NCBI GenBank assembly: GCA_020725805.1
Contig: DYEF01000073.1
Coordinates: 1 to 38,316, forward strand
DNA: 38,316 nucleotides
Source: Bdellovibrio sp.
GTDB lineage: Bacteria > Myxococcota > SpSt-1050
Reading direction: 5' to 3'
The notes beneath the pieces are model-generated. The model was not told where the DNA came from. It worked only from the letters and a program-made list of their open reading frames with translations, and did not search any database. Both the position numbers and the translations under genes were made by a program. Below, in pieces: positions 401-37,562 of the stretch. Within the stretch, counting starts at the first letter, position 1; each line of letters begins with the position of its first letter.

Positions 401-892
401 CTAATTTATAGATTCAGAAAGCCTTCTTATAAAGTTCTCCTCATTAAAAACCGGCACATCCGGAAATATCTCTTTACACATCTTTGCGAATATCCCGTCG
501 GAATAACCGGCAATATCCTCGTCCCTAAGATTTCTGAATACCTTGCAATCCCCATTTCCGCACGAGGGAGAACGACTCTTCAGAATAAAGAGGTCGACCC
601 TTTTCAGTTTCTTCAGAAAATTTACTGAAAATCCTTCGAGTCTTCTCTTCAGTCTGGCACCTGTCGATTTCTGAATCAGGAGAATGTGTTTTCCTTTTGC
701 TATAATTCTGATTGGTCTTCTTGGCACCCCGAGCCCTATCTCCATCTCGGGACAGACGCTGACGATTATGTATCCTTTTGCTCTGAGAATCCTTCTTATG
801 TCATATTCCCTGACTACACCATCATACCTGCATCTGAATCCAAGCAGACAGGCCGAGACAACTGCTCTCTTCCTCAGAGACCTATTTTTCAA
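401..892 (-). CDS. DUF523 family protein
   Basis: This small cytosolic protein (about 163 aa) belongs to the DUF523 family, whose function is not established. It shows the family's N-terminal [13 protein letters not shown] motif, a [11 protein letters not shown] segment, the SRSPSCGNG motif and the closing AGYSDGIFA segment, so the conserved cysteines of the family are present. The frame is open back to 970, deep inside ftsZ. I chose a TTG at 892 because it puts the family motif about ten residues from the start; ATG codons at 925 and 937 are alternatives. It overlaps the end of ftsZ by 11 bases and so is probably translationally coupled as the last gene of the dcw operon. The family call is solid; the start is uncertain. 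Confidence 0.82.
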
Positions 893-2060
893 AGTTCTTC
901 TGTTTTCTGATAAATGCGGGGACATCTCTTGGCTCATCGATCGGGACACTCGGATTATTCCCCATATCACCGATAGCAGTAACGATCTTTTCGGTCTCGT
1001 CTACTATCGGAAGACCGGGCTGTATCTTGCTCACTCTCTTCTGTGCCGGTATATCCCTGTCGACAAAGAGGTCGTTGGTAAATATCTCCCGCTTGTGCTT
1101 CTCGGTACGGTCAAAGCCTGTTGCAAAAATGGTAATCTTGATCTCGTCGTCGGCCATTCTGTCATCTATCACTGCACCGAAGATTATATTGGCATCGGGT
1201 GCAGCCGCCTCCGTAATCGAGTGACAGGCCTCATTGACCTCATTAAGGCTCATATTTACCGAACCTGTGACATTTATCAGCACTCCCTGTGCACCGTCGA
1301 TCTTGACATTCTCCAGAAGCGGTGATGAGACTGCCTCGTTGGCGGCCTCTATTGCCTTCTTCTCTCCCGACTTTCTTCCTGTCCCCATAAGTGCAAGACC
1401 CTGATTGGACATAATCGCCTTGACATCGGCGAAATCGACGTTGATGAGACCGGGGACATTGATTATATCGGTCACACCCTGCACCGCATTCAGAAGGACA
1501 TTGTCAACCATTAAAAAGGCTGTCTTGAACGAGACATTCCCTGCAACGGAGAGGAGTCTCTGGTTCGGAATTACTATAAGGGTGTCAACGTGTTTCTTGA
1601 GTTCGCTTATTCCGTTTAAGGCCTGATTGAGTCTCTTTCTTCCCTCGAATTCGAACGGTTTCGTAACCACACCTACTGTCAGAATTCCCATCTCCTTTGC
1701 GATACTGGCAACGACCGGTGCCGCACCTGTACCCGTACCACCACCCATTCCGGCGGTTATGAATGCCATATCGGTCCCAGAGAGATAATCAGCGATCTGA
1801 TTCTTTACCTCCTCTGCGGCATTCTTCCCTACCTCCGGATTTGCACCTGCGCCGAGCCCTCTCGTGCTCTTGGGCCCGAGCTGAACCTTTATCGGCGCCA
1901 GATTCTTTTCGAGACTCTGTACGTCTGTATTCATTGCCACAAACTCGACTCCCTGAATCCCCGACGAAATCATAGTATTCAGTGCATTGGTCCCTCCGCC
2001 TCCCACCCCGATGACCTTGATTACCGCATTCTTCTTTGCTTCCTCAATAATACTTATCAT
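882..2060 (-). CDS. ftsZ: Cell division GTPase FtsZ
   Basis: FtsZ is the tubulin-like GTPase that polymerises into the cytoplasmic Z ring. The 392-residue protein has the GTP-binding tubulin signature GGGTGTG at residues 106-112, an N-terminal [10 protein letters not shown] nucleotide loop, and the T7 synergy loop NVDFADVK at about 207-214, which completes the GTPase site of the neighbouring subunit. It ends with the conserved tail peptide DVPAFIRKQ (379-387), the docking site for FtsA and other partners, after a rather short linker. An AAAGGAGG Shine-Dalgarno precedes the ATG. It follows ftsA by 31 bases. Length and motifs are normal. Confidence 0.98.
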
Positions 2061-13662: not shown

Positions 13663-15177
13663 TCAGTCCTTCCCCCTTTCGTCAAAAGCCTTTTGGGCCT
13701 CTTCGATATCCGAAAAGTGTCTCTTTGTGGTCCCTTCGATGATGTAGTCTTCGTGACCTTTGCCGGCTATAAGGATGATATCACCTCTTTTGGCAACGGA
13801 TACAGCTTTCCTGATTGCCTGAGCCCTGTCAGGAATTATGCAATATACCCTTTCATCGCCACCTGAAAGGCCATCTGCTGCTACCTTTACAAAGCCTTTA
13901 TCCATCCCCTCCTCGATATCTGCAATTATTCTAAGCGGGTCCTCGGTTCGCGGGTTGTCGCTTGTAATAATGACTATATCTGCGTATTCACATACCGCCG
14001 CTGCCATAAGCGGTCTCTTTCCCCGGTCCCGGTCCCCGCCTGCACCGAATACTGTAATAATCTTTCTGTGACTGAGTCTCTTCAAGGCAGAAAGGACATT
14101 TCTTAGTGCATCGTCACTGTGTGCATAATCCACAAGGCATCTGATACCGTATCCGTTGCTGACCTTCTGCAGTCTTCCCGGGACATACCCAAGATTCCTG
14201 ATACCCTCTGCTATATCCGAGGACTTAATCCCGAGCAGATACATAGCACCGCACGAAGCCATAATGTTATAAAGATTGTGGAGTCCGATGAGACTGCTCT
14301 CAATCTGCAGTAACTCTCCGTCTACAGACAGATCTGCCCTGATATTATCATCGCCAATCTCATATTTTATACAGTGCACAAACGCACTTTTCTCCTCAAG
14401 TGAATATCCGAATATTCTCGGGAAATCCGAATCAAGAAGCCGTCTTCCGTATTCATCATCGGTATTGACAAGTGCCGCAGAATCATTATTCCTGCTGTAA
14501 CCTTTCGAGAAGAGCAGCCGCTTGGCGCTGAAATAATCTTCCATATCGCTGTGAAAATCCAGATGGTCCCTCGAAAGGTTGGTAAATATCACAACATCAA
14601 ATTTAAGGGCCTGAGTCCTTCTGAGTCTGAGTCCGTGAGACGAGACCTCCATCACGACAAGTCCGGTCTTTGCCTCTCTCATTTCAGACAGAACCTTCAT
14701 AAGTCTGAGCGGGTCGGGCGTTGTATTCGGCGCGGGAAGTGTCCTGCCGCCGAACCTGTAGTTTATCGTACCGATAACACCGGCACTGAGACCAGAGGCT
14801 GCGGAGATTGATTCAATCAGAAATGTCACGGAAGATTTTCCGTTTGTCCCTGTCACCCCTACCATCTTCATATCCTTATAGGGATGCTTATAAAATCTGG
14901 CAGCGACAGTATTCATAGCATCCGTAATGTCCGGAACAAATATATAACTGCCTTCAGGTATAAGACTCTTAATCTCCCTGTCACTGATGACTGCCGCACC
15001 TTTGCCTGTCACCTCAGGTACAAATCTGAGTCCGTCATCTCTGGTTCCCTTTACAGCAAAGAAGAGTGCGCCGGGTGTAACCTCTCTCGAATCGGAGGTA
15101 ATACAGTTAACGATAAAATCCTCTTTTATTCTCTTATCGATAACAGGCATACCATTTATCAGTTCAGAAAGCCTCAT
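13663..15177 (-). CDS. murE: UDP-MurNAc-dipeptide--meso-diaminopimelate ligase MurE
   Basis: MurE adds the third residue of the stem peptide. The 504-residue protein has the P-loop GTNGKSS (110-116), the HLDFH motif, a lysine in the SAKRLLF segment (K219) at the position that is carbamylated in Mur ligases, and DNPR at 407-410. DNPR is the amino-acid selectivity motif of meso-diaminopimelate enzymes; lysine-adding enzymes differ there. This is direct evidence for a meso-DAP wall. It overlaps ftsI by four bases. Confidence 0.97.
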   Translation of the reverse strand: MRLSELINGMPVIDKRIKEDFIVNCITSDSREVTPGALFFAVKGTRDDGLRFVPEVTGKGAAVISDREIKSLIPEGSYIFVPDITDAMNTVAARFYKHPYKDMKMVGVTGTNGKSSVTFLIESISAASGLSAGVIGTINYRFGGRTLPAPNTTPDPLRLMKVLSEMREAKTGLVVMEVSSHGLRLRRTQALKFDVVIFTNLSRDHLDFHSDMEDYFSAKRLLFSKGYSRNNDSAALVNTDDEYGRRLLDSDFPRIFGYSLEEKSAFVHCIKYEIGDDNIRADLSVDGELLQIESSLIGLHNLYNIMASCGAMYLLGIKSSDIAEGIRNLGYVPGRLQKVSNGYGIRCLVDYAHSDDALRNVLSALKRLSHRKIITVFGAGGDRDRGKRPLMAAAVCEYADIVIITSDNPRTEDPLRIIADIEEGMDKGFVKVAADGLSGGDERVYCIIPDRAQAIRKAVSVAKRGDIILIAGKGHEDYIIEGTTKRHFSDIEEAQKAFDERGKD

Positions 15178-17510
15178 TCTCCCTGCTCCCTTTTCAGGTG
15201 CAATACAATCTTTCTGTCCTTTGGAATGGACGAAAAAGGCGGAGGAATCTGTCTGTAGACCTTCCCCGACCCTATTATAGTTATGTTCATATCCTTCGGC
15301 CTGAGATAGCCGAGTGCATCCCTGAGTGAAAGTCCCGTCAGGTCAGGGACCTCGTCCTCGTAGAAATAACGGCTCTGTCTGGACTCCTCGGGGATATCAG
15401 CCACAGACTCATCCGTAACCGATGATACCGCCTTTTTACGGTCATTTTTGGATTCATCGGCAGAGCCCCCCGCAAAGATTCCCAGATATTTCAGCGTTCT
15501 GGTTGCTATTGCGCTGAAAACCGGCGCCGCCACCACACCACCGTAAACCTCCTGCTGCGGCTCGTCAATTGAGACCAGAATCACGAGCTCCGCGTCGTCG
15601 GCCGGCAAAAATCCTACAAAGGTACCGATTCGTTTATCCGAATAACCCTTCGTCAGCGGGTCCACCTTCTGTGCAGTCCCTGTCTTCCCTGCCACACTGA
15701 AACCCTCTACCCTTGCCCTCGTACCGGTTCCGCCCTCCTCTGTTACCCTCTTCATCATCTGAATCAGTTTCAGGGCATTATCGGCCGAAATGACCCGCTC
15801 TCTCCTTAATGGAGAAAATTCCTTTATAGTCAGGTTGGTCCTCGAATCAACGATACTGTCCACTATCCTCGGTGACACATACATACCCTTGTTTGCAATC
15901 ACCGCAAAGGCAGATGCAATCTGAAGCGGGGTAGCAGCCACAGTCTGTCCAAAGGATACCGTTGCAACGGTTATATCCGGCCATCTCTGAAATGACGGAA
16001 AAATCCCCTTTGATTCTGCGGGAAGGCCTATACCCGTGGGCATCCCGAACCCGAATCTTCTCAGATAATCTGCAAGTCTCTCGCCGCCGAGTTTCAGTCC
16101 GACCTTTGCCGTACCGATATTGCTGGAGAATTTCAGAATATCCTCGACCGACAGGACCCCGTGCGGATGGGCATCCTTTATGGTTCTCGACCCTATCTTC
16201 ATCTCACCGTTCTGACAGTCAAAGGTAGTATCCTTCGTTACAAGATTCTCCTCCAGCGCAGCGGCTATCGTAAAGACCTTCATGACGGAGCCGGGCTCAA
16301 ACGGAGAAGAGATTGAATTATTGACACGCACCTGTGCGGCATATTTGTTGTAGTTGTTGCTGTCAAAATACGGATAATTGGCCATTGCCAGAACATCTCC
16401 GGTCTTCGGATTAAGGACAATGGCATAACCTGCTGTTGCGTTATACTTCCTGACCCCCTGTTCGAGTTCGGTCTCGACTATATGCTGAATATTTGCATCA
16501 ATCGTAAGTATTACCCTGTTACCCTCTGCCATTTTGGCCTGAACATTCTCTCCCGTACAGATTTCATTACCCGATGCATCCCGGATTCCGCTGATATACT
16601 GATACTCACCCTTGAGACTCTCGTTGAACTGCAGTTCTATACCGCCCGCTCCCTCCTGATCGACATTCGTAAATCCTATTATATGGGATGCGAGCCTTTT
16701 CTGGGGATACGCCCTTTTGTTCTCCTTAATCAGCCCAAACGCATTCGTATAAAAGAACGGATTTTTGGGTGCATAGGACGAAAATATCAGTTCTATCAGA
16801 TATCTGTTGAGTGCCCTTAGCTGTTCCCTCTCATAGTCCGTAAGTTCATTATAATCTCTCTGATTAAAATCCCTGACCTCTCTTAAAAGGATATTGCCTG
16901 TCTGAGTCATTCTGGAGTATGTACTCTTGTCGAGATTCAGTTTCTTATACAGATATCTTTCATTCAGAAGAGAATTCAGATATGCAAGGCTGTAATCCGT
17001 ACCGCCCTTTATACCAAGTTTCTCCCTGATTGCGGTAATGAGTTTTCTGAGGTCACCCTTCTTCTCGAACTCCTTTTCATAAAAACCCCCGGCCCCTCTT
17101 ATCCTCAGCGCAATATTTTCATCCAGCAGTCGCTGAACCCATACAAAAGGCCTCTCGTCACTGAATATCCTGAGAAGTTCCTTTTCAGGTCTTTTAAGCA
17201 TATCGGCAAGTATATGGGCGAAGTATTTTCTCTCATTATCGTCCGCAAACTTCTGTGGTTTGGCAAATAGAGAAAACCTCTCGACGGTAATTGCGAGCTC
17301 TACGCCGTTCCGGTCGGAGATTGTACCCCTCTTCGGCGTCAGTTCAATAGCCTTTTCGTGCTGACTCGTGGCAAGACTGGAATACTTCCTTACTTCCTTT
17401 ATCTGCAATCCTGATGCCCTGTGCACAATCAGCAGTGTAACGCAGACAATAAATCCTATCAGGATAATAATCCTGATTTTGATTCCTCTTGTCCTCTCCC
17501 TGTCTCTCAT
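15174..17510 (-). CDS. ftsI: Septal transpeptidase FtsI (class B PBP) with PASTA domain
   Basis: FtsI (PBP3-type) cross-links septal peptidoglycan in the periplasm and partners FtsW. One transmembrane helix (about 11-30) is followed by the pedestal domain with RGTISDRNG (61-69). The transpeptidase domain has S408-V-M-K411 (catalytic serine), S462-S-N464 and K609-T-G611. A single PASTA domain (about 718-775, starting VPDLTGLSLRDAL) ends the protein. At 778 residues it is much longer than the 588-residue E. coli protein. Part of the difference is PASTA; the rest is about 150 extra charged residues near 110-260 within the pedestal. It overlaps ftsL and murE by four bases each. Confidence 0.95.
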   Translation of the reverse strand: MRDRERTRGIKIRIIILIGFIVCVTLLIVHRASGLQIKEVRKYSSLATSQHEKAIELTPKRGTISDRNGVELAITVERFSLFAKPQKFADDNERKYFAHILADMLKRPEKELLRIFSDERPFVWVQRLLDENIALRIRGAGGFYEKEFEKKGDLRKLITAIREKLGIKGGTDYSLAYLNSLLNERYLYKKLNLDKSTYSRMTQTGNILLREVRDFNQRDYNELTDYEREQLRALNRYLIELIFSSYAPKNPFFYTNAFGLIKENKRAYPQKRLASHIIGFTNVDQEGAGGIELQFNESLKGEYQYISGIRDASGNEICTGENVQAKMAEGNRVILTIDANIQHIVETELEQGVRKYNATAGYAIVLNPKTGDVLAMANYPYFDSNNYNKYAAQVRVNNSISSPFEPGSVMKVFTIAAALEENLVTKDTTFDCQNGEMKIGSRTIKDAHPHGVLSVEDILKFSSNIGTAKVGLKLGGERLADYLRRFGFGMPTGIGLPAESKGIFPSFQRWPDITVATVSFGQTVAATPLQIASAFAVIANKGMYVSPRIVDSIVDSRTNLTIKEFSPLRRERVISADNALKLIQMMKRVTEEGGTGTRARVEGFSVAGKTGTAQKVDPLTKGYSDKRIGTFVGFLPADDAELVILVSIDEPQQEVYGGVVAAPVFSAIATRTLKYLGIFAGGSADESKNDRKKAVSSVTDESVADIPEESRQSRYFYEDEVPDLTGLSLRDALGYLRPKDMNITIIGSGKVYRQIPPPFSSIPKDRKIVLHLKREQGE

Positions 17511-17899
17511 TTAGTCTGTCCTATAAAACTATTCCCCTTCTCGTCAATACCTTTTCTGATCTCGACAATCTCTCCGGGTACCGGATATCTCATATTCAGT
17601 TTCTCGGTTGCATACTTTTCAATCCTCGCAGGTGAAATGAGAACCGAAAACTGCGATTTGAGAACCTTGTTTTCGTCGAGCAGCATCTTCTGTTTCTTAT
17701 TTTCCACGGGAACGATATAGCTGTATTTTATGACCTGATTCCGCACATAGAGGTGTACAACTGAGACCGTTACAAAAATTAGGCAGATTATCAGCATCGG
17801 CAGGAGAAACATCCAGTATGATGCAAGACCCCTGATACCCTCTTTCTTCTTCTGTCCCTTAACGGTACTGCTGTAACTTATGTAGGATATCTCCTCCAT
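17507..17899 (-). CDS. ftsL: Cell division protein FtsL-like
   Basis: This 130-residue bitopic protein sits exactly where ftsL is found, between rsmH and ftsI. It has a short cytoplasmic N-terminus rich in lysine, one transmembrane helix (about 29-53), and a heptad-like periplasmic segment (about 60-95) with the ISPARIEKYATEKLNMRYP pattern, similar to the IE..A...LGM motif of FtsL/LPXTG-free DivIC relatives. FtsL works with FtsB and FtsQ to activate FtsWI. Similarity in the family is weak, so the call rests on topology, motif and position. Its ATG directly abuts the rsmH stop. Confidence 0.88.
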   Translation of the reverse strand: MEEISYISYSSTVKGQKKKEGIRGLASYWMFLLPMLIICLIFVTVSVVHLYVRNQVIKYSYIVPVENKKQKMLLDENKVLKSQFSVLISPARIEKYATEKLNMRYPVPGEIVEIRKGIDEKGNSFIGQTK

Positions 17900-18826
17900 C
17901 TATTCCTCCTTTTTCTTATCGCCAAAACTGATTGCCCGCAGTCTGGCACTGCGCGAGCGGGGATTCTGCCTCATCTCTTCATCGGAGGGAACAATAACCT
18001 TCTTGTTGATGAGTTTTGCAAAACAGGTTTCCCCGTTCGTCTCGATATATTTCTGCTGTACAAATTTTCTGAAAATATTCTTTACGATCCTGTCCTCTAC
18101 GGAATGGAAAGAGATAACGACAGCGACAGAATCGGGCTTCATCATAAGCGGGAGTTTTACGAGAAATTCCGTAAGATTTCCGACCTCATCGTTTACCATC
18201 ATCCTGATTGCCATAAAGACCCTTGTAACAGGGTCAATCCTTCTGCTCCGCGGGAGATATCTGCACCTTCTTAGATAATCAGCAAAAGCCAGTGAATCAT
18301 CGGGCATTCTTTTTGTGAAGTAGAGCTTTATATATTGGGCTATCTTTAATGATTTTGAGATATCTCCGAAATGCTCGAGTCCGTATGCCAGATTTTCACA
18401 GTCTATGCCGGCAAGAAACTGATAGGCAGTCGGCGAACTACTTCTGTCGAACCGCATATCGAGAGGTCCGCCCTTCATAAAACTGAATCCGCGTGACGGA
18501 TTATCGATCTGATGGGAAGAGAACCCAAGGTCTGCCACAACCCCGTCCACTCTTTCAAAACCCGCCTGCCTGACAATTTTTACAGCATCCCTGAAATTCC
18601 CCTTGAGAGGAAAGAATCTGTCTTTGAACTCATTTTTGAGGGAGGCCGCATTACTCAGGGCATCATCATCCAGATCAGAAGCGATTACAACTCCGCCCTT
18701 TTCGAGAATCGCCCTGCTGTGTCCTCCTCCGCCGAGAGTTGCATCGAAATAGACCTTGCCTTCTGATACCTTAAGAAGGTCTGTAACCTCGTCTTTCATT
18801 ACAGTTATATGTCTGTACTCGCTCAT
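17900..18826 (-). CDS. rsmH: 16S rRNA (cytosine-1402-N4)-methyltransferase RsmH (MraW)
   Basis: RsmH methylates N4 of C1402 in 16S rRNA using S-adenosylmethionine. The 308-residue protein begins with HITVMKDEV, followed by the SAM-binding DATLGGGGHS (28-37), ADLGFSSHQID, GFSFMKGGPLDMR and VVISFHSVEDRIVK motifs that define the family. The frame could extend to a TTG at 18856, but I chose the ATG at 18826 because GGGAAGG lies about eight bases before it and because family members begin a few residues before HITV. It follows the small STAS-like gene in the operon. Confidence 0.96.
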   Translation of the reverse strand: MSEYRHITVMKDEVTDLLKVSEGKVYFDATLGGGGHSRAILEKGGVVIASDLDDDALSNAASLKNEFKDRFFPLKGNFRDAVKIVRQAGFERVDGVVADLGFSSHQIDNPSRGFSFMKGGPLDMRFDRSSSPTAYQFLAGIDCENLAYGLEHFGDISKSLKIAQYIKLYFTKRMPDDSLAFADYLRRCRYLPRSRRIDPVTRVFMAIRMMVNDEVGNLTEFLVKLPLMMKPDSVAVVISFHSVEDRIVKNIFRKFVQQKYIETNGETCFAKLINKKVIVPSDEEMRQNPRSRSARLRAISFGDKKKEE

Positions 18827-18861
18827 ATCAGACCTTCCCGGCACAGGGCCGAACAATCAAA

Positions 18862-19224
18862 TCAGTTTCTGTAGGAAGAGAAACTATTTGCAAACGTATA
18901 CTGAGATTTCAGGACAGATATGTCGTTTATAACCTCAAAATGCTCAGGAACCCTCTCTACATTCAGGATATCTATCAGAGTCTTCTTTGAACAGAGAATA
19001 ATCAGCCTGACACCACTCTTTCTGAGTTTATTCTTTATGTTTATCAGCGAATCGAAAGCGTGTCTCTGAATATGTTCTCCGCCGGAAATATCAAGTACAA
19101 AAATTCTGTTGCCGCAGTTTATCTCCTTCGACATCTCTCTTAAGAAATCGGCTATATCAGTTAGCCCCACCGGACCGTTTAGTGAAAACCAGACCAGTCC
19201 CTCTGAAAAGGTCTTCCTCATCAT
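18862..19224 (-). CDS. Small STAS-like protein inserted in the dcw operon
   Basis: This 120-residue protein resembles STAS (anti-sigma factor antagonist) domains in length and beta-alpha pattern: a first strand GLVWFSLNG, a helix, the strand RIFVLDISG, a helix, the strand VRLIILCS, and a final helix. In SpoIIAA-type proteins the strand FVLDLS is followed by IDSSG, whose serine is phosphorylated. Here the matching stretch reads HIQRHAF, so the usual phosphorylatable serine and glycine are missing. It has a strong AAGGAGGG ribosome site before tandem ATG codons (19224, 19221). It lies between mraZ and rsmH, where no gene normally occurs. Function unknown; the STAS call is fold-pattern inference. 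Confidence 0.6.
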   Translation of the reverse strand: MMRKTFSEGLVWFSLNGPVGLTDIADFLREMSKEINCGNRIFVLDISGGEHIQRHAFDSLINIKNKLRKSGVRLIILCSKKTLIDILNVERVPEHFEVINDISVLKSQYTFANSFSSYRN

Positions 19225-19233
19225 AGTCCCTCC

Positions 19234-19692
19234 TTAAAGTTTCAGATTGAGTTTCTGAGCCTTCCTGATAAGCTCTTCTGCAGAGAATCTGAGCCTTGAC
19301 TCGACCTCCTCTGCATATACGTCCTTTGCCCACAGCTCCATCCTGTCCCCGATACCCGTAATAATGCCCTCGGACCTTATCCCGGCGTAATCCTTTAGGT
19401 CCTGTCTCAAAACGAAGCGTCCCTGTTTATCGAACTCCGTTTCGAACGCATAGGTGGTGTAGATTCTCCTGAAAACCTCCGCATCCTCGTCATAGGAAGG
19501 AAACTTCGAAAGTTCTGCAATAATATTTCTGTGAAGCTTTTCGGGGAGAACCTGAATATTCTTCCTGATACCCTTGACCAGCACAATCTTATTCGAATAA
19601 TCTTCGAGCAGAATATTTCTGAAGACAGAAGGGATAATCAGCCGCGACTTCTGATCCAATAGAAACTGGAAATTTCCGATGAGATTACTCAC
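19234..19692 (-). CDS. mraZ: Transcriptional regulator MraZ
   Basis: MraZ is the DNA-binding regulator that heads dcw clusters and represses or tunes its own operon. The 152-residue protein has the two tandem AbrB-like half-domains of the family: LLDQKSRLIIPSVFR near residues 11-25 and FDKQGRFVLRQDL in the second half, each with the D-x-(K/Q)-x-R core. The start is a GTG with no good Shine-Dalgarno; the bases upstream are instead part of a repeated TGGTGTA motif (see the operator). It is the first gene of the minus-strand operon. Confidence 0.94.
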   Translation of the reverse strand: MSNLIGNFQFLLDQKSRLIIPSVFRNILLEDYSNKIVLVKGIRKNIQVLPEKLHRNIIAELSKFPSYDEDAEVFRRIYTTYAFETEFDKQGRFVLRQDLKDYAGIRSEGIITGIGDRMELWAKDVYAEEVESRLRFSAEELIRKAQKLNLKL

Positions 19693-19695
19693 TTT

Positions 19696-19751
19696 TACAC
19701 CACCATCTGGAATCTGATGCCACTATACACCACAATACACCATTTAGTCAA
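19696..19751 (-). promoter_or_regulatory. mraZ promoter with 10-base phased TGG operator repeats
   Basis: On the minus strand a -35 TTGACT (19751-19746) and a -10 TATAGT (19727-19722) are separated by 18 bases, giving a leader of roughly 20-25 bases before the mraZ GTG. TGG begins at 19742, 19732, 19722 and 19702, all on one 10-base phase with only 19712 missing; three of the four copies extend to TGGTGTA. MraZ operators in E. coli are TGGG-type direct repeats on a 10-base period, so this is a probable autoregulatory site overlapping the spacer, the -10 element and the ribosome site. Confidence 0.75.
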
Positions 19752-21710: not shown

Positions 21711-24479
21711 CTACAATCCGTTGCTTATCCTGATCGTATAGGAATCACACTGATAGGGTGCATTCGGATTTCTGTAAACCTTTATGAAATATACTTTGGA
21801 ATTGTCATTGCAGCAGTTGGTCGTAAAGTTATTGGTTACACAGGTGGTCGTGCAGGGATTTTCACCCTCATAAGGACCGCCCGGCACTACATCCGACCTG
21901 AAATTAGTCCTCCACTGGAAAACCGTGTCATTTATACACTTTACATTTGCATTGTTGCAGTCATTCTCCCTTATCTCGAGCAAATATGCATTGTCCGGAT
22001 TATTCAGAAAGCTCACAGTAAAGTTGAAATTATCTCCGCCGTTGTTTCTGTCAGCATTGATATCATCCCGCGCTACAACCCTGTACCAGTCTTCGTCATT
22101 CTGAGGAATAATCTTTGCAGTTATATCGAGGTATGTCTGCGCACTGTCGATAAATTCGCTCTGTATGGCAAGTGCCCCGGCACAGGTATTCCCCACACCC
22201 TGAATGTCATTGGAGTCTGCCTGACACTCACATCCGTTGGAATAGATCTGGTCAACATCGTAATACCCGAAGTTACAGGAAGTAATCCTGCACCCGCCCT
22301 GATAACACTCGGTCGTCGCATTTTGCGGCGGGGGACATAACACATTGATATTTCCTTCATCAGTAAGGCCGTTGCAGTCATTATCCTTCCCGTCACAAAT
22401 CTCCTTCGGGTCAGCAGTTTTCACGCAGTTGTATTCGCAGCCGTTAGAGTTATCCGGTGCATTCAGGTCACCGTTGAGGTCATAGTAATCCGCAAGACAG
22501 GAGTAAAGGCAACCGGTTCCGCAGGTACAGATGCCGCTCGTATTATTTCTTGCAGGGCAGCACGTCTTACCTGAGCCCGACAGCGGGATTACTACATTGA
22601 AATTGGACTTTCTGTCGCTGTTCTTAATCGAAATTGCACCTGTTCTCTGCGTCGGCTGGCCATTCTGCTGTGAACCGACGGATGGCACAAAGGCAACATT
22701 TATAGCTACCTTCTGGGCAGAATCCAGTATAATGGGCATATTTGGGATATTGGAAAGAACAAAATCCGAACTGGAACCGATTGTCAGTTCGATTGAAGAG
22801 ATAATAAGCTGTCCGAACCCCGCATTGGAAATATTTATCGTCCTGATATCAGATGAGCAATTCTGTGATGTATCATAAAGAACAACTCCGAAATCCAGAC
22901 TCGAATTATCCACACTAATCGTCGGGTCAATCGCACTGGCGGTCACAGGAACGAATACATTGTCATTACCAATCGAATCATTCGACCTGATATTGATTTT
23001 GGTTGAAACCGTCTCTATTGATTTCGGAGCATACTTTACAGTAAACGTAGTTGAACCCCCCGGAGTAATATTTATCGGAGTCTGAACCGGCTGATTATTT
23101 ACAAGGAGAGTAAGCGATGTCCCCGGGTTTTCGATAAGTGCATCGGTAATGACAAGATTTACCTTTCCGTCATTCTTTGCAACAATCTGTTCGGTCTTTT
23201 CGTCATTTACCTGAACGGTGCCAAAATCCACCACCTGCTTATCAAGTGTAAGTTTCGGACCCTGATAATTACACTGTGCCTTTATCAGTATAGTCGTCGA
23301 ACCGTCGTCAGGTGTAGAATTATTGCCAACCGTATCAATATCAGGGTCATTTGTATTGAATGTTATCACCGAAGCCTCATCAAATTTGTCCTCATTGCAT
23401 TTGAACGTTATTTCGATGAAATATACCTCTGACGGATTGTCATAGATTGGAGTATTAACAGCGTTCTGGGTATCGATATTGTTATAGATCTTCATATCGA
23501 AAGTATTGTTCGAGGCGCTCGTTTTGGTGAGGTATAGTTTTGATATTTCCAGAATCGCCTCACTTGCAACATTAGTAAAATATATTCTCTTCTTTACAGA
23601 CTTACCGGACTCTGCGTTTCCCAAATCCACTGTATACTGATACGGGTTGGTAGTAGGTGGCCACAACCTTTTATTAAAATCCTTTTCATCCACTATTGCA
23701 AAATCAGGGCTGTCTTTATATGACGATACAATAGGCAGTTTGAACTGAGGCTTATTCTCATCATTTGAAATAATCAATATGTTCCCCTTGTCGGGAGTTG
23801 CATCGTCCTGACAGTACTGTACCTCGATATCTATCGATGAACCTGCTGCAATATTGCCGGGTATCTGAATCGGGATATTGAGTGTAAATCTCGGGGTCTG
23901 CGGCGGTTCCGGGTTGGTTCCGGATTCAAAATCAATCATCGTAATCCTGAGATCGGCACTTCCGACATTCTGAATCTTGAATGTCCTCTTCGAGCACTGA
24001 CCAAAGAATACCGCACCGAAATTGATGACCTGAGGGTCGACGAAAAGAACAGGACGGTTCTTTTCGACACACTGGTGGGTATTGAGGTCACATATCTTAC
24101 TGGCATCCTTACAATCCTTGTCTTCATCACAATAAAAGGAGACATCCGTCAAAACAACATCTGTACCGGCATCTTCAGTAATAACATCGGTTACCTTCAC
24201 ACACTTTCCGTTTATACATTCAGTATCGGGCTCCATGCAGTCCAGATTGTTCTTACAGACCTCTCCCCCGTCAGGCCTTGACGGCACGCATATCTTCTTA
24301 ACAGGGTCACACTCATAACCGCTCTTGCACTGGGCACTGTTTGAACACTTCTGAATACCCACATCCGGCTGGGTACCCGTATCGTTTTCAGACGGTGTAG
24401 TATTATCACTGCACATTACCAGCAGAACAAATACGGAAATCACAACAATCACATACAACATTGTCCTGATAAAATTCAT
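21711..24479 (-). CDS. Exported ASH/SPD-2-like multidomain protein with MopE motif
   Basis: This protein is 922 residues from the ATG at 24479, chosen because AAGGAG precedes it; the frame is open to 24518. It has a hydrophobic N-terminus ending LLVMC (Cys23, a non-ideal lipobox), then three C-x-C Cys modules (about 45-64, 75-93, 117-137). Several immunoglobulin-like beta domains of the ASH/SPD-2 type follow, each opening with a pattern such as VDPQVINFGAVFFG or LDKQVVDFGTVQV. A Cys-rich region with the MopE-type DGKDNDCNGLTDEG (about 693-707) comes next, and then a C-terminal domain of PPC-like character with ENPCTTTC. No catalytic motif is seen. It starts 40 bases after its larger paralogue and shares its C-terminal domain. 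Confidence 0.8.
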   Translation of the reverse strand: MNFIRTMLYVIVVISVFVLLVMCSDNTTPSENDTGTQPDVGIQKCSNSAQCKSGYECDPVKKICVPSRPDGGEVCKNNLDCMEPDTECINGKCVKVTDVITEDAGTDVVLTDVSFYCDEDKDCKDASKICDLNTHQCVEKNRPVLFVDPQVINFGAVFFGQCSKRTFKIQNVGSADLRITMIDFESGTNPEPPQTPRFTLNIPIQIPGNIAAGSSIDIEVQYCQDDATPDKGNILIISNDENKPQFKLPIVSSYKDSPDFAIVDEKDFNKRLWPPTTNPYQYTVDLGNAESGKSVKKRIYFTNVASEAILEISKLYLTKTSASNNTFDMKIYNNIDTQNAVNTPIYDNPSEVYFIEITFKCNEDKFDEASVITFNTNDPDIDTVGNNSTPDDGSTTILIKAQCNYQGPKLTLDKQVVDFGTVQVNDEKTEQIVAKNDGKVNLVITDALIENPGTSLTLLVNNQPVQTPINITPGGSTTFTVKYAPKSIETVSTKINIRSNDSIGNDNVFVPVTASAIDPTISVDNSSLDFGVVLYDTSQNCSSDIRTINISNAGFGQLIISSIELTIGSSSDFVLSNIPNMPIILDSAQKVAINVAFVPSVGSQQNGQPTQRTGAISIKNSDRKSNFNVVIPLSGSGKTCCPARNNTSGICTCGTGCLYSCLADYYDLNGDLNAPDNSNGCEYNCVKTADPKEICDGKDNDCNGLTDEGNINVLCPPPQNATTECYQGGCRITSCNFGYYDVDQIYSNGCECQADSNDIQGVGNTCAGALAIQSEFIDSAQTYLDITAKIIPQNDEDWYRVVARDDINADRNNGGDNFNFTVSFLNNPDNAYLLEIRENDCNNANVKCINDTVFQWRTNFRSDVVPGGPYEGENPCTTTCVTNNFTTNCCNDNSKVYFIKVYRNPNAPYQCDSYTIRISNGL

Positions 24480-24519
24480 ATCCTTACTCCTTAGGACTAT
24501 TTTACATTCTTTTGACAAC

Positions 24520-27500
24520 CTACGAACCGTTTGTAATCTTCAGAGTATAAGTGCTGCAGGTTGTGGCGGCCCCGGCCCTTCTGTAAACCTTAATGTAGTA
24601 TGTAGCGGTGTAACTGTGGCAGCAGTTGCTTATAAAATCACTGCTTGTACAGCTTGCGGTACAGGGATTCTCTCCCTCGTTCTTACCGTTCCCGTCAACA
24701 TCTCCCCTGAAGTTCATATTATATTCGTACTTTACATCATCAGAACAAACTTTATTGTTGTTATCCACGACATTCCTGTAGACCTCAATCTGAAATTCAC
24801 AGGAGGCAGGAACAGACGGATTACAACCCACAATTTCGACTATAAAATGGAAATTATTGTAACCTGCAGTGGCCACATCCTGTGCAACGACCTTATACCA
24901 GTCCGCATCTCCGGTCGGGACAATGTTCTTGCCGGTCACTTCCACATATTGCTTCAGCGAATCCTGAAGTGTCCCGAGGTCGATAGCCGTTGCGGAGGTA
25001 TTTCCTAAATTGTTTCTGTCGTTGTCATCCTGCCTGCATTCACAACCGTCCGAATATATCCCGTTGACATTATAGTAGGTCGCATTGCATCCCGTAATTA
25101 CACAAGCCGAACTCTGGCAGGCAACCGAAGATGCCTGAGGCGGTATTGTACAGATGTTGCCGCAACCGTTACAGTTGCTTACGTCATTTGTTATATTTGT
25201 CTCACAGCCATCCGCATATCCGTTCTTGCAATCCATGTATCCGGTATTGCAGGAGGCAATTCCACAGGTGCTGTTCTCACACTTTGCCGTCCCGTTTGCA
25301 ACTGTACAATTCGTGGTACAACTTCCGCAAGCATTGATATTGTTGCTCGTATCCGTCTCACAGCCATCGGAGGGATTGGTATTGCAGTCCCTGAATGTCC
25401 CGAGGCAATAGTCAATTGCGCAGACTTTGTTCACACACTTTGCCTGAGCATTGTTGAGCTGACAGATATAATTACAGTAGCCACAGTTATTAACACTTGT
25501 TGCAATATTTGTCTCACAACCTGTATCTGCCTTACCATCGCAGTCCCTGTAATCCCCTATACAGCTGTCTATTGCACACTGACCTGCAACACACTTCGGA
25601 TTTGCATTATTGAGACTGCATACATAGTAACAATCACCGCAGTTATTGACATCTCCTGCGACATATATTTCACAGCCGGTCGAATAGACTCCGTCACAGT
25701 CCTTGAATCCGCTGTCGCACTTGTCAATAACACAAAAACCATTGACGCACTTCGAGGTTGCATTCGGGGCAGAACACTTCTTGTTGCACCCGCCGCAGTT
25801 ATTGACATCCGTATTGGTATTTGTCTCACAACCATCTGCATATCCGTTCTTGCAGTCTTTATACGGAGTGTTGCACCTGTCTATCTCACACACCCCATTA
25901 TTGCATTTCGGTACTCCATTAAGCACAGAACATATTGTAGAACAATTTCCACAGTGGTTTACATCGCTCTGAGTTGATGTCTCACACCCGGTGCTATATA
26001 ACTTATCACAGTCTCCGTAAAACTGGTCGCAGGATGCTATCTCACAGCTCCCGTTCGAACATTTTGGTGTTCCGTTTGCCACTACGCATTCATTTTTGCA
26101 AACCCCGCAATGATTGGTTGATGTATTGATATTTGTCTCACACCTGTCACTCATATCGTTGTTACAATCAGAAAATCCGTTAGGACAGGCAAATCCTATA
26201 CCAGCGACATTAATATACTTTACCTGATTATCCTTATCGCTCGATTTTATCTCAATGGCACCTTTTATCTGATTCGGGTCAGATGATACTGAAGGCATAA
26301 ACTTTACTCCAAACTGTAAAGTCTCCTGTCCGTCGCCCTTCAGAAACACAGGGAACTGCTGCGGGAGATTGACAAGAATAAAGTCACTGCTCGAACCAAC
26401 GCTCAGGGCTATAGAATTGACAGAGAGCGTTCCCTTCCCGCTGTTATAGATAGTCATACTAACAACGGCAGACTCCTTGCCGAGTTCGATCACCCCAAAA
26501 TTGATATCAGTATCAGGATTTATTACTAAGTTCGGGTCGGTCCCGCTTGCATAAAGTCTGACCTCAATGAGCGGATTATTCGGGTCATTGGATTTTATCA
26601 CGATCTTATTGAACTGGTCGCCCTGAGATTTAGGAGCAAATTTGACCTTGACTTCGACACAGGCTCCTCCCTGCAATGTCCCTCCTAATTTGGACGGAGA
26701 GATTGTATAGTCAGTATTCGGGTTGTCAAAACCGGATGTCCCGTCTATTACAAGGGCATCCTCACCGGTATTGCAGATATTGAAAATATCCTCACTGGAC
26801 AATCCTACCTGAACCTCGCCGAAATTGATTTCTGTCCTGTCGACATTAATCCCGGGCGGCACATATCCCGCCTGCCCAACAATATTGATTGTCAGCTCCC
26901 CGCTGTCATCAATATAATCATTGTTAATATCTGAATCATTTGTGGCAATGACCATACGCGTATGTTCGCTGGCTTCCTTCTCCTGCGGCACATATCTGAT
27001 ATAAAGGTCGACCATCTCTCCGGCACTGATATAAAACGGGGCCGTGTATTTGGTATTGGGGTCAAGAGGTGAACGCATCTCTATTTCTATTTTATTTCTG
27101 CTCATCTGGGTAATATTCGCACTTTTGATTGCGATAATTCCGTCCTCCGACTGATTCAGGAAAGTAACCATCATCTCTTTTGTATTCCCTACAGGAATAT
27201 TTCCAAGGTCGATTCCGTAGGAGTTAGTAGCGCCTGACTGCGGATACAATAATTTTGGCGGATTTGTGCTTCTGTCCACAATAACGAGATCGGGCGGTTT
27301 CTTGTATTTGCTGCTCAAAAAGACCTTGATACTCGGGTTTGTGATATCTGAACTGTTTATCACAAGAAAGCCGTTGTCAGGCTGGGCATCATCCTGTTTA
27401 TAGGTTACATCTACATTCAGGGTATCATTCGGCTGAAGAACAGCAGGAATATTCTTTTCGGTTGTCCTTGTAAATCTCGGATGTTCAGGGTCGGGGTTTG

Positions 27501-28035
27501 TATTACTCTCGAAGTCGACCATATAGATTGTCAGCGGACCATTCCCTATATTGGTTATAACAAGCGTCTTCTTAATTGCCTGTCCAAACTGGACACTGCC
27601 GAAGTCGAGCTTCTCCGGGTCTACCTTTATTCTCCCGCCGTATACACAGGAATGTGTCTCGAGATTACATACAAAGCCATCCGGACACTCGGAATTGTAA
27701 TTGCACTTAATAGATTCAACCGGAGTTATATCGACACCCGTCTCTTCACCGCCTGCATCAACTGATTTCTTCTGACATACAGAATTGACGCACTCCTCAT
27801 CGGGACTACAATCTGTGGAATTACGGCAGGTTGTAATGGTCCCGCCATCCTTCTTTACGCAGATATTATTTACACAGCTCTCGTCCTTATCACACTGTGC
27901 GGAATTCTTACAGGGCTTTTGTGTCCCTCCGCTGTCTTCGAGGAAAGAAGAGACATCGCCGCTGCACTGGGGAAACATAATTGCAGCGGACACAGCAATA
28001 CCCAATACAAATATTATCAGAGTCTTTTTAATCAT
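24520..28035 (-). CDS. Exported ASH/SPD-2-like protein with seven Cys-rich repeats
   Basis: This 1171-residue exported protein is the paralogue of its downstream neighbour. A signal peptide (about 1-24, ending MFPQC, not a clean lipobox) leads into three Cys modules (42-59, 70-87, 111-130). About four ASH/SPD-2-like beta domains follow, opening with VDPEKLDFGSVQFG, VDRTEINFGEVQVG and INPDTDINFGVIELG among others. Then come seven 52-residue repeats with eight cysteines each (about 614-983), and a C-terminal domain with ENPCTASC ending in TLKITNGS. The ATG has an AGGAGGG ribosome site and a strong promoter upstream. The fold suggests a cell-surface structural or adhesive role; no enzyme motif was found. 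Confidence 0.8.
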   Translation of the reverse strand: MIKKTLIIFVLGIAVSAAIMFPQCSGDVSSFLEDSGGTQKPCKNSAQCDKDESCVNNICVKKDGGTITTCRNSTDCSPDEECVNSVCQKKSVDAGGEETGVDITPVESIKCNYNSECPDGFVCNLETHSCVYGGRIKVDPEKLDFGSVQFGQAIKKTLVITNIGNGPLTIYMVDFESNTNPDPEHPRFTRTTEKNIPAVLQPNDTLNVDVTYKQDDAQPDNGFLVINSSDITNPSIKVFLSSKYKKPPDLVIVDRSTNPPKLLYPQSGATNSYGIDLGNIPVGNTKEMMVTFLNQSEDGIIAIKSANITQMSRNKIEIEMRSPLDPNTKYTAPFYISAGEMVDLYIRYVPQEKEASEHTRMVIATNDSDINNDYIDDSGELTINIVGQAGYVPPGINVDRTEINFGEVQVGLSSEDIFNICNTGEDALVIDGTSGFDNPNTDYTISPSKLGGTLQGGACVEVKVKFAPKSQGDQFNKIVIKSNDPNNPLIEVRLYASGTDPNLVINPDTDINFGVIELGKESAVVSMTIYNSGKGTLSVNSIALSVGSSSDFILVNLPQQFPVFLKGDGQETLQFGVKFMPSVSSDPNQIKGAIEIKSSDKDNQVKYINVAGIGFACPNGFSDCNNDMSDRCETNINTSTNHCGVCKNECVVANGTPKCSNGSCEIASCDQFYGDCDKLYSTGCETSTQSDVNHCGNCSTICSVLNGVPKCNNGVCEIDRCNTPYKDCKNGYADGCETNTNTDVNNCGGCNKKCSAPNATSKCVNGFCVIDKCDSGFKDCDGVYSTGCEIYVAGDVNNCGDCYYVCSLNNANPKCVAGQCAIDSCIGDYRDCDGKADTGCETNIATSVNNCGYCNYICQLNNAQAKCVNKVCAIDYCLGTFRDCNTNPSDGCETDTSNNINACGSCTTNCTVANGTAKCENSTCGIASCNTGYMDCKNGYADGCETNITNDVSNCNGCGNICTIPPQASSVACQSSACVITGCNATYYNVNGIYSDGCECRQDDNDRNNLGNTSATAIDLGTLQDSLKQYVEVTGKNIVPTGDADWYKVVAQDVATAGYNNFHFIVEIVGCNPSVPASCEFQIEVYRNVVDNNNKVCSDDVKYEYNMNFRGDVDGNGKNEGENPCTASCTSSDFISNCCHSYTATYYIKVYRRAGAATTCSTYTLKITNGS
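25087..26195 (-). repeat. Seven in-frame 52-residue (156-base) Cys-rich repeats
   Basis: Seven tandem units encode a pattern like xxxDCxxGxxDGCETNxxxDVNNCGxC, then xxxC, xxxxAxxKC, xxxxC and xIxxC, with eight cysteines per unit. An eighth incomplete unit ends in GIYSDGCEC. The units are diverged at the DNA level, so this is an old protein-level duplication rather than a fresh tandem repeat. Similar CETN/NCG.C repeats are common in secreted proteins of myxobacteria and relatives. Confidence 0.85.
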
Positions 28036-35554: not shown

Positions 35555-36097
35555 CTATCTGGATCTACAACAATAAGGTATATGCTCATCTGCCCACCTA
35601 TCAGCATCAGAATCACTTGAAATATTTAATACGGCATGAGCAATTTCGTGAAGTACAGTATAACAAGTATATTTACAATTCCCTCTTTCGTTATTAGTTA
35701 TTACTATACTATATGAACCAACTTCTGTATAACCACAACATTTACCTTCCCCTGAAGGACAACCAACACCTATTGAGTCACATTTCCAATATATAGTCTT
35801 AGCATAATTAGAGGTATTATCATCTCCATATAAATAAATACACAACAAGCAGTGATTTACATTCTTACATCTTAACCCTTTGGGATCAATATTATATATA
35901 GGGTTACCATGTACGTAGCTGCAACAATTAGGATATATAAGCTTTAAATCAAAATCCTCATTAAGAAGAATTTTATCAAATTCCACATACCTCCCCACCT
36001 CCCTCTCATACCACCTCCACCAGTTGTAGTATAACCCTGTCTCTTCTATGTAATATTGTCCAGGGAAGCGGAAATTATTTATTGTTCTCTCGACCAT
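35555..36097 (-). CDS. Orphan Rhs tip: short core piece plus HEIAH zinc-protease-like toxin
   Basis: This 180-residue frame starts inside the Rhs core (VERTINNFRFPGQYYIEET, residues 2-20) and keeps the GLYYNWWRWYEREVGRY core strand. The core ends with YVHGNPIYNIDPKG (61-74). The following unique tip (75-180) has eleven-plus cysteines and H150-E-I-A-H154, with acidic residues downstream in SDADRWADEH (162-172) as possible third zinc ligands. This is the arrangement of a zincin-type peptidase toxin. It lacks the Rhs body, signal and transport domains, so it is a displaced C-terminal module. It is followed at once by a candidate immunity gene. Confidence 0.72.
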   Translation of the reverse strand: MVERTINNFRFPGQYYIEETGLYYNWWRWYEREVGRYVEFDKILLNEDFDLKLIYPNCCSYVHGNPIYNIDPKGLRCKNVNHCLLCIYLYGDDNTSNYAKTIYWKCDSIGVGCPSGEGKCCGYTEVGSYSIVITNNERGNCKYTCYTVLHEIAHAVLNISSDSDADRWADEHIPYCCRSR

Positions 36098-36127
36098 TAG
36101 AACAAGTTTCTAACTGACACTGAGTGT

Positions 36128-36517
36128 TTAACTCTTACCTTCTTTATTTTTGAAAAAGAAATATACACTCTTAGTAACAACTAATAAAACCAAGAAGAGA
36201 ATTATACATGATAATAGTATTATAAATTTAAGTGATACCTCACCATTTAAGTAATTGAAAAACATACTTATTATTAGGAAAAAAAAGAAAATTAAAGAAT
36301 TTATTAAAAGTATTGAAATAATAGCATAATTTTTTAATGGTAAAAACCCCCATATAATTCCTACACTAAACATAAATACATGGAAACTTATTAGCAACTT
36401 AAAGTCAAACTTAAATATGAAATTAAGAATAATTATTATTGAGGATGTAATAATAAAAGATATTATCAGTACAATACCTCTTATTTGTATTTCTTTTCTT
36501 ACCTCATCGTTTATCAT
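36128..36517 (-). CDS. Four-helix membrane protein, candidate immunity to the second Cys-rich tip
   Basis: This 129-residue protein consists almost wholly of four hydrophobic helices with short polar links, beginning MINDEVRKEIQIRG. The ATG at 36517 has GGAGGA seven bases before it and is preferred over one at 36532. It starts 30 bases after the tip gene at 36548-37003 and before the next orphan tip. I recognise no family. A polytopic partner placed directly after a toxin module fits immunity against a membrane-acting toxin; this is inference. Confidence 0.5.
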   Translation of the reverse strand: MINDEVRKEIQIRGIVLIISFIITSSIIIILNFIFKFDFKLLISFHVFMFSVGIIWGFLPLKNYAIISILLINSLIFFFFLIISMFFNYLNGEVSLKFIILLSCIILFLVLLVVTKSVYFFFKNKEGKS

Positions 36518-36547
36518 ACAATATTCCTCCATCTCAATAAATACTGA

Positions 36548-37003
36548 TTAACATCTATCTTTCATACAATAGCAATATTCATTAAAACAAGCAATAATAG
36601 CGACTATTTCGGGGATACCAAAGATTATATCACACGCTATTACACAGCAAGGTGGATTTGGTGACAACATACATCCCATAATACATATATCCCACGCATC
36701 AGCAATTGCCAACCCGAGTTCTAAAAGGCAGTCTCTAAGTTTGGCACTATCACATTTAATTAATCCTGTTTTATCATAAAAAATCAGTGGATTATTACTA
36801 ACATATTCATAAAGACTAAAATTGTCTCCTTTATTATTTCTTATTCTTTCTACTTGAATATATTGTGAGGTATTCCAATTATACCACCTCCACCAGTTGT
36901 AATATAGTCCTGTCTCTTCTATGAAATATTGTCCGGGAGATCTAAAATTATTCTTTGTCCTCTCAACCAATATACTTCTCACTCTATTGTTTAAAATATA
37001 CAA
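36548..37003 (-). CDS. Orphan Rhs tip: short core piece plus Cys-rich toxin candidate
   Basis: This 151-residue frame carries a core remnant (ILVERTKNNFRSPGQYFIEE at 11-30, then GLYYNWWRWY) and the end of the core as FSLYEYVSNNPLIFYDKTG (62-80). A 70-residue tip with 11 cysteines (84-151) follows, including hydrophobic runs CLLELGLAIADAW and IIFGIPEIVAIIACF. The tip is not a family I know; the alternation of hydrophobic segments and Cys pairs suggests a disulfide-bonded, membrane-active peptide. The core's usual DPIG motif is degenerate here (QVERIR). It starts 19 bases after the previous candidate immunity gene. Confidence 0.65.
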   Translation of the reverse strand: MYILNNRVRSILVERTKNNFRSPGQYFIEETGLYYNWWRWYNWNTSQYIQVERIRNNKGDNFSLYEYVSNNPLIFYDKTGLIKCDSAKLRDCLLELGLAIADAWDICIMGCMLSPNPPCCVIACDIIFGIPEIVAIIACFNEYCYCMKDRC

Positions 37004-37022
37004 AGTTGATAAATCTCAATAT

Positions 37023-37562
37023 CTATTCTTCTCTTTCATTACCCAATGTTCTAATATATTTCCTATATATGTATTCTTCTCTAAATATGATACCAAATAC
37101 AAAAAATAAATATGAAAGTGGTAATATAAAATACATATATCCTAATCCTGATTTTAAATAAGCTACTATCCAAGAACATATTCCATACGTCCCGGATAAA
37201 AGAAATAATACCATAAATATTTTTATAATCAGAGTTTTTAGGTTATCATTCTTTTTATAATCACTGTTTTTTCCACTCATTTTATCTCCTCTCACTTTAC
37301 CTGTTATCTTATTTATTACTAAATTTGAAAGCACAAAAATACTAATGCATATATGTACTAATGAATCTCTTTGATCAATATAATAAGGCCAGTGGTAAAT
37401 CACAATATTGCATATATTACTAACTTCACATATATTATTAATGTTTCCATTTTTTTCATATTTTTCATAAAAAAGTACAAAATTAACTTGCGGTGCAAAT
37501 AATATTATTAAAAAACACATTATTAAAAAAACGTCATAAATTGTTATTTTTATTCTTTTCAT
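37023..37562 (-). CDS. Four-helix membrane protein, candidate immunity to the first Cys-rich tip
   Basis: This 179-residue polytopic protein has four predicted helices (about 7-25, 70-86, 112-135, 140-160) and a charged C-terminus. The start is the ATG at 37562, whose bases overlap the stop codon of the Rhs tip gene (ATGA), so translation is coupled; the frame's longer ATG at 37619 lies inside that gene. No family is recognised. Tight coupling to the toxin-tip gene and membrane topology suggest immunity to a membrane-targeting toxin, by inference. Confidence 0.55.
   Translation of the reverse strand: MKRIKITIYDVFLIMCFLIILFAPQVNFVLFYEKYEKNGNINNICEVSNICNIVIYHWPYYIDQRDSLVHICISIFVLSNLVINKITGKVRGDKMSGKNSDYKKNDNLKTLIIKIFMVLFLLSGTYGICSWIVAYLKSGLGYMYFILPLSYLFFVFGIIFREEYIYRKYIRTLGNEREE

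Follow-up and report, generated by a model that had tools for sequence, protein, structure and literature searches.

An inherited STAS-domain gene between mraZ and rsmH in the division cluster of part of the Myxococcota

Few gene orders in bacteria are as conserved as that of the dcw cluster, and the locus described here raises the question of why a gene for a STAS-domain protein should stand within it, between mraZ and rsmH. The gene lies on a 38,316-nucleotide contig of a Bdellovibrio sp. genome classified in the Myxococcota (GCA_020725805.1, DYEF01000073.1), and this whole stretch is called the window below. From mraZ to ftsZ, the dcw genes are all on the minus strand of the window and in the usual order (Table 1; the genes past ftsI were named from their translations and gene order, without profile searches). 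The STAS gene starts 9 nt downstream of the mraZ stop codon and is followed by rsmH, whose likely start is an inner ATG at 18826; the ftsL-like gene reaches 34.7 bits on TIGR02209 (cut-off 42.45), FtsL still being its best match. A preliminary description of the locus had placed the gene between mraZ and rsmH, behind a strong ribosome site, and both statements hold: the Pfam matches of the neighbours bear out the position, and an AAGGAGG is present. A study of dcw gene order used, according to its main text, 17 genes of the cluster, and neither 'STAS' nor 'Myxococc' occurs in that text (PMC8871954). Elsewhere in the window, a 1171-aa protein (24520-28035, minus strand) carries many Cys-rich repeats of the type DxNxCGxCxxxC after choice-of-anchor-like segments, and its 935-aa neighbour (21711-24518) looks related to it. 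Three ORFs within 35555-38296 (minus strand) have in common a stretch like VERTxNNFRxPGQYxIEETGLYYNWWRWY, resembling the ends of RHS-type cores, followed by differing tails.

Table 1. Features of the division cluster in the window
Feature	Position	Strand	Description
dcw-STAS gene	18862..19224	-	120 aa, ATG start, STAS domain only
AAGGAGG ribosome site of the STAS gene	19229..19235	-	overlaps the mraZ stop codon; read from sequence
mraZ	19234..19692	-	PF02381 60.6 bits (cut-off 23); 79.1 bits on TIGR00242 (cut-off 98.35, not reached)
rsmH (mraW)	17900..18856	-	PF01795 255.2 bits (cut-off 27); TIGR00006 259.1 bits
ftsL-like gene	17507..17899	-	PF04999 22.6 bits, just below the cut-off of 22.9; cluster position
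ftsI-like penicillin-binding protein (FtsI-type transpeptidase)	15174..17510	-	PF00905 267.5 bits
ftsZ	882..2060	-	named from translation and gene order
Three GTGG-like repeats, 10-base spacing, upstream of mraZ	19720..19743	-	candidate MraZ boxes
Promoter-like TTGACT-18-TATAGT upstream of mraZ	19722..19751	-	consensus match only

The product of the gene is a STAS protein by both profile and fold. It passes the PF01740 model (E 9e-8, 32.3 bits, cut-off 22.6), as do nine of the ten members of the dcw-STAS family that were scanned, the exception being a short form from family f13 (L071, 21.4 bits). The AlphaFold2 model, computed from the window protein with 18 relatives (pLDDT 85.7, pTM 0.79), has TM1442, TM1081 and SpoIIAA as its best Foldseek matches (E 2.4e-5 to 9e-5), and VIA-align superimposes it on SpoIIAA bound to SpoIIAB (1thn_B) with a Z of 13.7 and 2.3 Å over 110 residues. 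A search of the solved structures by sequence returned chance matches only (best E 0.47). The 120-residue STAS-like protein of the preliminary description is thus borne out, and the structure prediction proposed there as a check gave a SpoIIAA-like fold and not an unrelated one. In its own genome the gene is the sole PF01740 match; a second, weak match (G000:C95, L141, E 0.094) does not match the family model, and STAS_2 has no match in the window protein or anywhere in that genome. The dcw-STAS proteins of f13 (L064:2249-2548, minus strand; L071:828-1127, plus strand) are short forms of 100 aa with an alignment gap after the loop considered below; one of the two scanned lies just below the STAS cut-off, and this form may be decaying or specialised.

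The distinctive part of the protein is the loop in which SpoIIAA is phosphorylated, at S58. The window loop H51-I-Q-R54-H55-A replaces (x)-M-D-S-S-G, and IQRHA aligns with the MDSSG of another STAS protein, L109. Columns were counted on an alignment that sets 45 dcw-STAS copies beside 17 other STAS proteins, namely L109 and 16 of the same phylum; the counts do not include G121, a near copy, or G122, L127 was added for the alignment, and L124 and L141, the latter without a family-model match, were kept out of the comparison set. At the column of the SpoIIAA phosphoserine, Ser is found in 1/45 dcw copies (33 have Arg and three have His) versus 14/17 other STAS proteins. The preceding column is Tyr or Phe in 40/45 dcw copies, and a His four places before the phosphosite is present in 44/45 of them versus 1/17 of the others. 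The window copy keeps this loop His (H51), followed by Arg-His at 54-55, so that H55 occupies the phosphoserine column and neither loop place holds Ser or Thr; the common dcw-STAS loop is DYRG, from which its QRHA differs. Exceptions at the phosphosite pair occur in f23 (Cys-Ser, Tyr-Ala, Ser-Ala or Tyr-Asn, one copy keeping Ser), f25 (Tyr-Gly), f13 (Tyr-Ala), one f30 copy (Tyr-Gly) and f31 (Tyr-Met), and the f26 copy has His-Arg and lacks the loop His. The basic loop residue is missing in f13, f23, f25 and one f30 copy. As read from these columns, nearly the whole family has, in place of the SpoIIAA/RsbV phosphoserine, a loop of the type His-x-[DN]-[YF]-[RH] (Q-R-H in the genus of the window). 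The earlier statement that IQRHA stands for IDSSG and that the phosphosite is absent was therefore right, and it extends to nearly the whole dcw family.

The position of the gene is equally a property of a family. Against 58 genomes the window protein had three matches, its own genome, one of the same genus (72% identity) and one of the same order (34% over the matched part), and in all three the gene is between mraZ and rsmH. A profile made from these three copies found a match in 149 of the 195 genomes of the phylum, at a loose limit (E <= 1). The mraZ-rsmH gap was then scored in 62 loci (60 mraZ loci fetched, mostly one per genus, and two obtained earlier): 39 contain a STAS-like ORF and 23 do not, L060 and L022 being counted among the latter since they gave shadow ORFs in other frames. 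With the window, the insertion is present in 40 of 63 loci; both f30 genomes, added later, have it as well. A further 20 genomes were queried for rsmH, six of which had no match; the remaining 14 gave one locus each, two of them with STAS (one f26, one f23), the second rsmH-like place of G040 (L156) and a sub-threshold locus (L157) being excluded. The gene is present in 12 of the 31 families sampled (f1, f2, f9, f13, f23 and f25 to f31) and absent from 19 (f3 to f8, f10 to f12, f14 to f22 and f24). No sampled family is mixed, several being represented by a single locus. In some genomes of STAS-positive families neither mraZ nor rsmH was matched (G178 in f9, G190 in f31), and f22 has an rsmH locus without mraZ.

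In named genomes, scanned with five sequences of f9, the Myxococcaceae, the order mraZ-STAS-rsmH was found at 28 of 29 loci. Of these 28, 27 bear the titles Myxococcus (including M. xanthus), Corallococcus, Pyxidicoccus, Archangium, Hyalangium, Citreicoccus or Myxococcaceae bacterium, and the last that of Comamonas; the remaining locus, from an Oscillospiraceae record, has a DSSG loop and neither mraZ nor rsmH beside the STAS gene. The locus titled Comamonas sp. KCTC 72670 (L107, BNCN01000001.1) has a Myxococcus-type mraZ-STAS-rsmH region, and its title looks wrong. The only other phylum sampled, that of the Oscillospiraceae genome (G195), gave a match in 176 of 299 genomes; among its 30 best loci, none has mraZ or rsmH within about 1.5 kb, as judged with models made from Myxococcota sequences, and 22 have a DSSG loop. 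A scan of the genome-contig database with the single window protein gave no relative of the window copy, and nothing among 50,697 phage records and 72,556 plasmid records matches the protein. Part of the Myxococcota thus inherits the dcw-STAS gene as a member of the cluster, with a conserved place and direction. To see in it an oddity of one genome would be wrong; the survey of dcw clusters in relatives, suggested at that time, found the same insertion again and again and not a random one peculiar to this genome.

The gene shares its history with its neighbours. Pairwise distances over 42 loci (without L036 and L072) correlate between STAS and RsmH (r 0.85), STAS and MraZ (0.84) and RsmH and MraZ (0.83), with all three permutation values at their floor (0.001). 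An RsmH tree was made of 80 rows, of which 45 have the gene and 35 lack it (L072, with too little rsmH, was not included); on it, presence of STAS needs 3 changes (2-3 in bootstraps) versus 26.5 for shuffled labels. On this tree 41 of the 45 STAS-positive rows fall in one starred group (100/99), and f1 (two rows), f2 and f31 stand apart near the base of the tree, which is unrooted; either one ancient gain followed by losses or two to three separate gains would be possible. When 42 dcw-STAS and 16 other STAS proteins (L127 omitted, and G121 as a near copy) are put on one tree, a single, weakly supported branch (69/26; 70% of bootstrap trees) divides the two sets, and the pair that includes the window copy has a long branch, of 2.1 changes per column. 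That the ORF is more than a chance reading frame follows from the same-genus and same-order copies in the same gap and from the pattern of codon positions, of which the first is 78%, the second 83% and the third only 42% identical in the same-genus comparison. Synonymous sites are saturated between these two genomes, so that no dS was obtained; dN is 0.18 for the STAS gene, 0.17 for ftsI, 0.29 for rsmH, 0.25 for ftsL and 0.10 for mraZ.

The mraZ, STAS and rsmH genes are likely to be on a shared transcript, judging by the letters, because no minus-strand promoter-like site was found between mraZ and rsmH, despite a weak terminator-like site inside the STAS gene on its own strand (19166-19150; two such sites in the stretch versus 1.0 expected). 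Upstream of mraZ, the GTGG-like repeats, which would be MraZ boxes, overlap the -10 of the promoter-like sequence. Neither signal stands out from chance: the window has two matches to the GTGG pattern, with 1.42 expected, and four promoter-like sites were found in the stretch versus 2.5 expected. G002 (L006) and M. xanthus (L098) also have repeats spaced by 10 bases close to the start of mraZ. According to one report, MraZ is a repressor of the dcw cluster and binds to boxes upstream of it (PMC8475190).

Three f9 genomes (G120, G121 and G122; loci L158, L159 and L160) have no MraZ match and keep STAS-rsmH. They are Myxococcaceae of a single genus code (g61), of which a fourth genome, G123, has mraZ. 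The remnant was compared in G120 and G122, where the stretch upstream of mraZ is recognisable and mraZ itself matches over only about 50 bases. Since these genomes retain STAS-rsmH with no detectable mraZ, MraZ is not the sole reason for keeping the STAS gene.

Several explanations compete for the function of this protein. One is an anti-sigma factor antagonist of the SpoIIAA/RsbV type, locked in its unphosphorylated, binding state, that would titrate an anti-sigma kinase in step with the division operon. The closest solved folds are anti-sigma factor antagonists, and L031, a relative from f31, passes TIGR00377 (67.1 bits, cut-off 53.45); it is the only one of four relatives scanned to do so, and the window protein scores just 13.4 bits. 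Short HATPase_c_2 frames (<=210 aa) are among the matches listed for three of 14 STAS-positive genomes (G015, G090 and G185), with none among those listed for the other 11. HATPase_c_2 has 15 matches in the genome of the window, and the top eight are proteins of the histidine-kinase type, one of them CheA-like; all 15 lie in frames of at least 379 aa and the seven lower-ranked ones in frames of at least 510 aa, so a classical RsbW or SpoIIAB partner for the window copy is not indicated among these eight best matches. Moreover, Arg or His in dcw-STAS stands at the phosphosite column, where Ser would meet the ATP of the kinase. We consider a locked antagonist unlikely, and the anti-sigma or stressosome-like partner proposed in the preliminary description finds no support in these kinase-type matches, the single PF01740 match and the lack of Ser/Thr in the loop.

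A partner or regulator of RsmH, the 16S rRNA methylation enzyme encoded immediately downstream, would fit the presence of STAS directly before rsmH at every STAS-positive locus scored, including the three without mraZ, and the antagonism of MraZ and MraW in E. coli, reported in PMC8475190, leaves room for a modulator. Operon gene order is nevertheless weak evidence of contact and 19 of the 31 families make RsmH with no STAS gene before it, which leaves this role distinctly unlikely. That the protein assists or antagonises the repressor MraZ is very unlikely: the STAS gene is immediately downstream of mraZ, its ribosome site overlaps the mraZ stop codon and STAS-MraZ distances correlate (r 0.84), but this correlation is no higher than that of STAS with RsmH and the three f9 genomes keep STAS without a MraZ match. 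These genomes led us to reject MraZ as the only partner. It is more improbable still that the dcw cluster has taken in an MlaB-like STAS protein as subunit of a lipid transporter of the Mla type. The genome of the window has one MlaE (E 1.7e-77) and no STAS_2 match, so that the usual MlaB was not found, and seven of ten family members scanned pass the STAS_2 cut-off; the window copy, however, has no STAS_2 match, the MlaB model NF033618 gives no match to it at E <= 1 and at best 16.4 bits among four relatives scanned (L006; cut-off 90), and no mla genes adjoin, the STAS gene of the window being on contig C69 and the MlaE match on contig C6. An insertion into this genome, random or mobile, could be argued from the 19 STAS-negative families, most of which have mraZ next to rsmH, yet the same place in 12 families, the history shared with the neighbours, a conserved protein and the lack of phage or plasmid matches make it hardly credible; it is rejected.

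The reading that we prefer is a STAS docking protein, independent of phosphorylation and co-expressed with the division operon. Taken as a whole the odds on this statement are about even, its descriptive part being far more secure. The protein would be translated from the mraZ-headed transcript, so that its dose would follow the division operon, and would stay 'on' for docking at all times, with no need of serine phosphorylation. The loop with its His, Tyr and basic residues, on the side through which SpoIIAA contacts its partner, might bind one conserved partner; that the loop is the docking face is our assumption, from the SpoIIAA-SpoIIAB contact. This partner would not be an RsbW-type kinase, nor would it be MraZ alone; a divisome or envelope-synthesis protein from the same operon is the likeliest candidate. 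A role as scaffold or adaptor is possible. The wider idea of a division-cluster protein of the Myxococcota, including M. xanthus, in which a His-x-[DN]-Tyr-Arg loop serves as a fixed divisome or envelope docking surface and a sigma-control fold has been recruited as a structural part, is put forward tentatively, as somewhat less probable than its contrary. Against the docking protein we count the 19 families without the gene, the copies without the basic loop residue, the f23 copy that keeps Ser, the weakly supported branch of the STAS tree and the fact that the genome analysis found no binding partner for the window protein. Because the window copy is on a long branch and has QRHA in place of DYRG, a function found in Myxococcaceae would be carried over to it by inference.

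In the open-licence literature we found neither a description of a STAS gene in the mraZ-rsmH gap, which a subscription paper may contain, nor phenotype data for dcw-STAS, and the papers that mention a STAS domain together with mraZ look unrelated to such a gene. A stable extra dcw member in a model organism, M. xanthus, is therefore absent from the literature found, and it is directly testable there. If the docking protein is real, the STAS fold would have a further use, one that does not depend on phosphorylation, and division, envelope synthesis or rRNA methylation would perhaps gain a new factor; the natural genomes that lack mraZ offer a way to its partner.

Among known systems, SpoIIAA and RsbV are the closest in form: like the window protein, they consist of one STAS domain, about 120 aa long, and share its fold. 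They differ from it in their conserved phosphoserine, which it lacks, and in their place beside a kinase and a sigma factor, whereas the window gene is in the dcw cluster; no stand-alone RsbW-type kinase was recognised among the eight best of the 15 matches in its genome. The main text of a review describes STAS antagonists as acting through a conserved serine and contains neither 'cell division' nor 'Myxo' (PMC8256260). The stressosome proteins RsbS and RsbR also have the fold of the window protein (Z 11.8 by VIA-align for RsbS, 6jhk_B) and, unlike it, carry Ser/Thr phosphosites; given the single PF01740 match, there is no RsbR/RsbS pair in the genome of the window. MlaB is a STAS protein that acts as a fixed subunit and not as a switch, but the window protein and the four relatives scanned do not pass the MlaB model, and the window gene has no mla genes beside it. 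Compared with the canonical dcw cluster, from mraZ to ftsZ, the window has the same neighbours in the same order on one strand and differs by one additional gene, that of the STAS protein.
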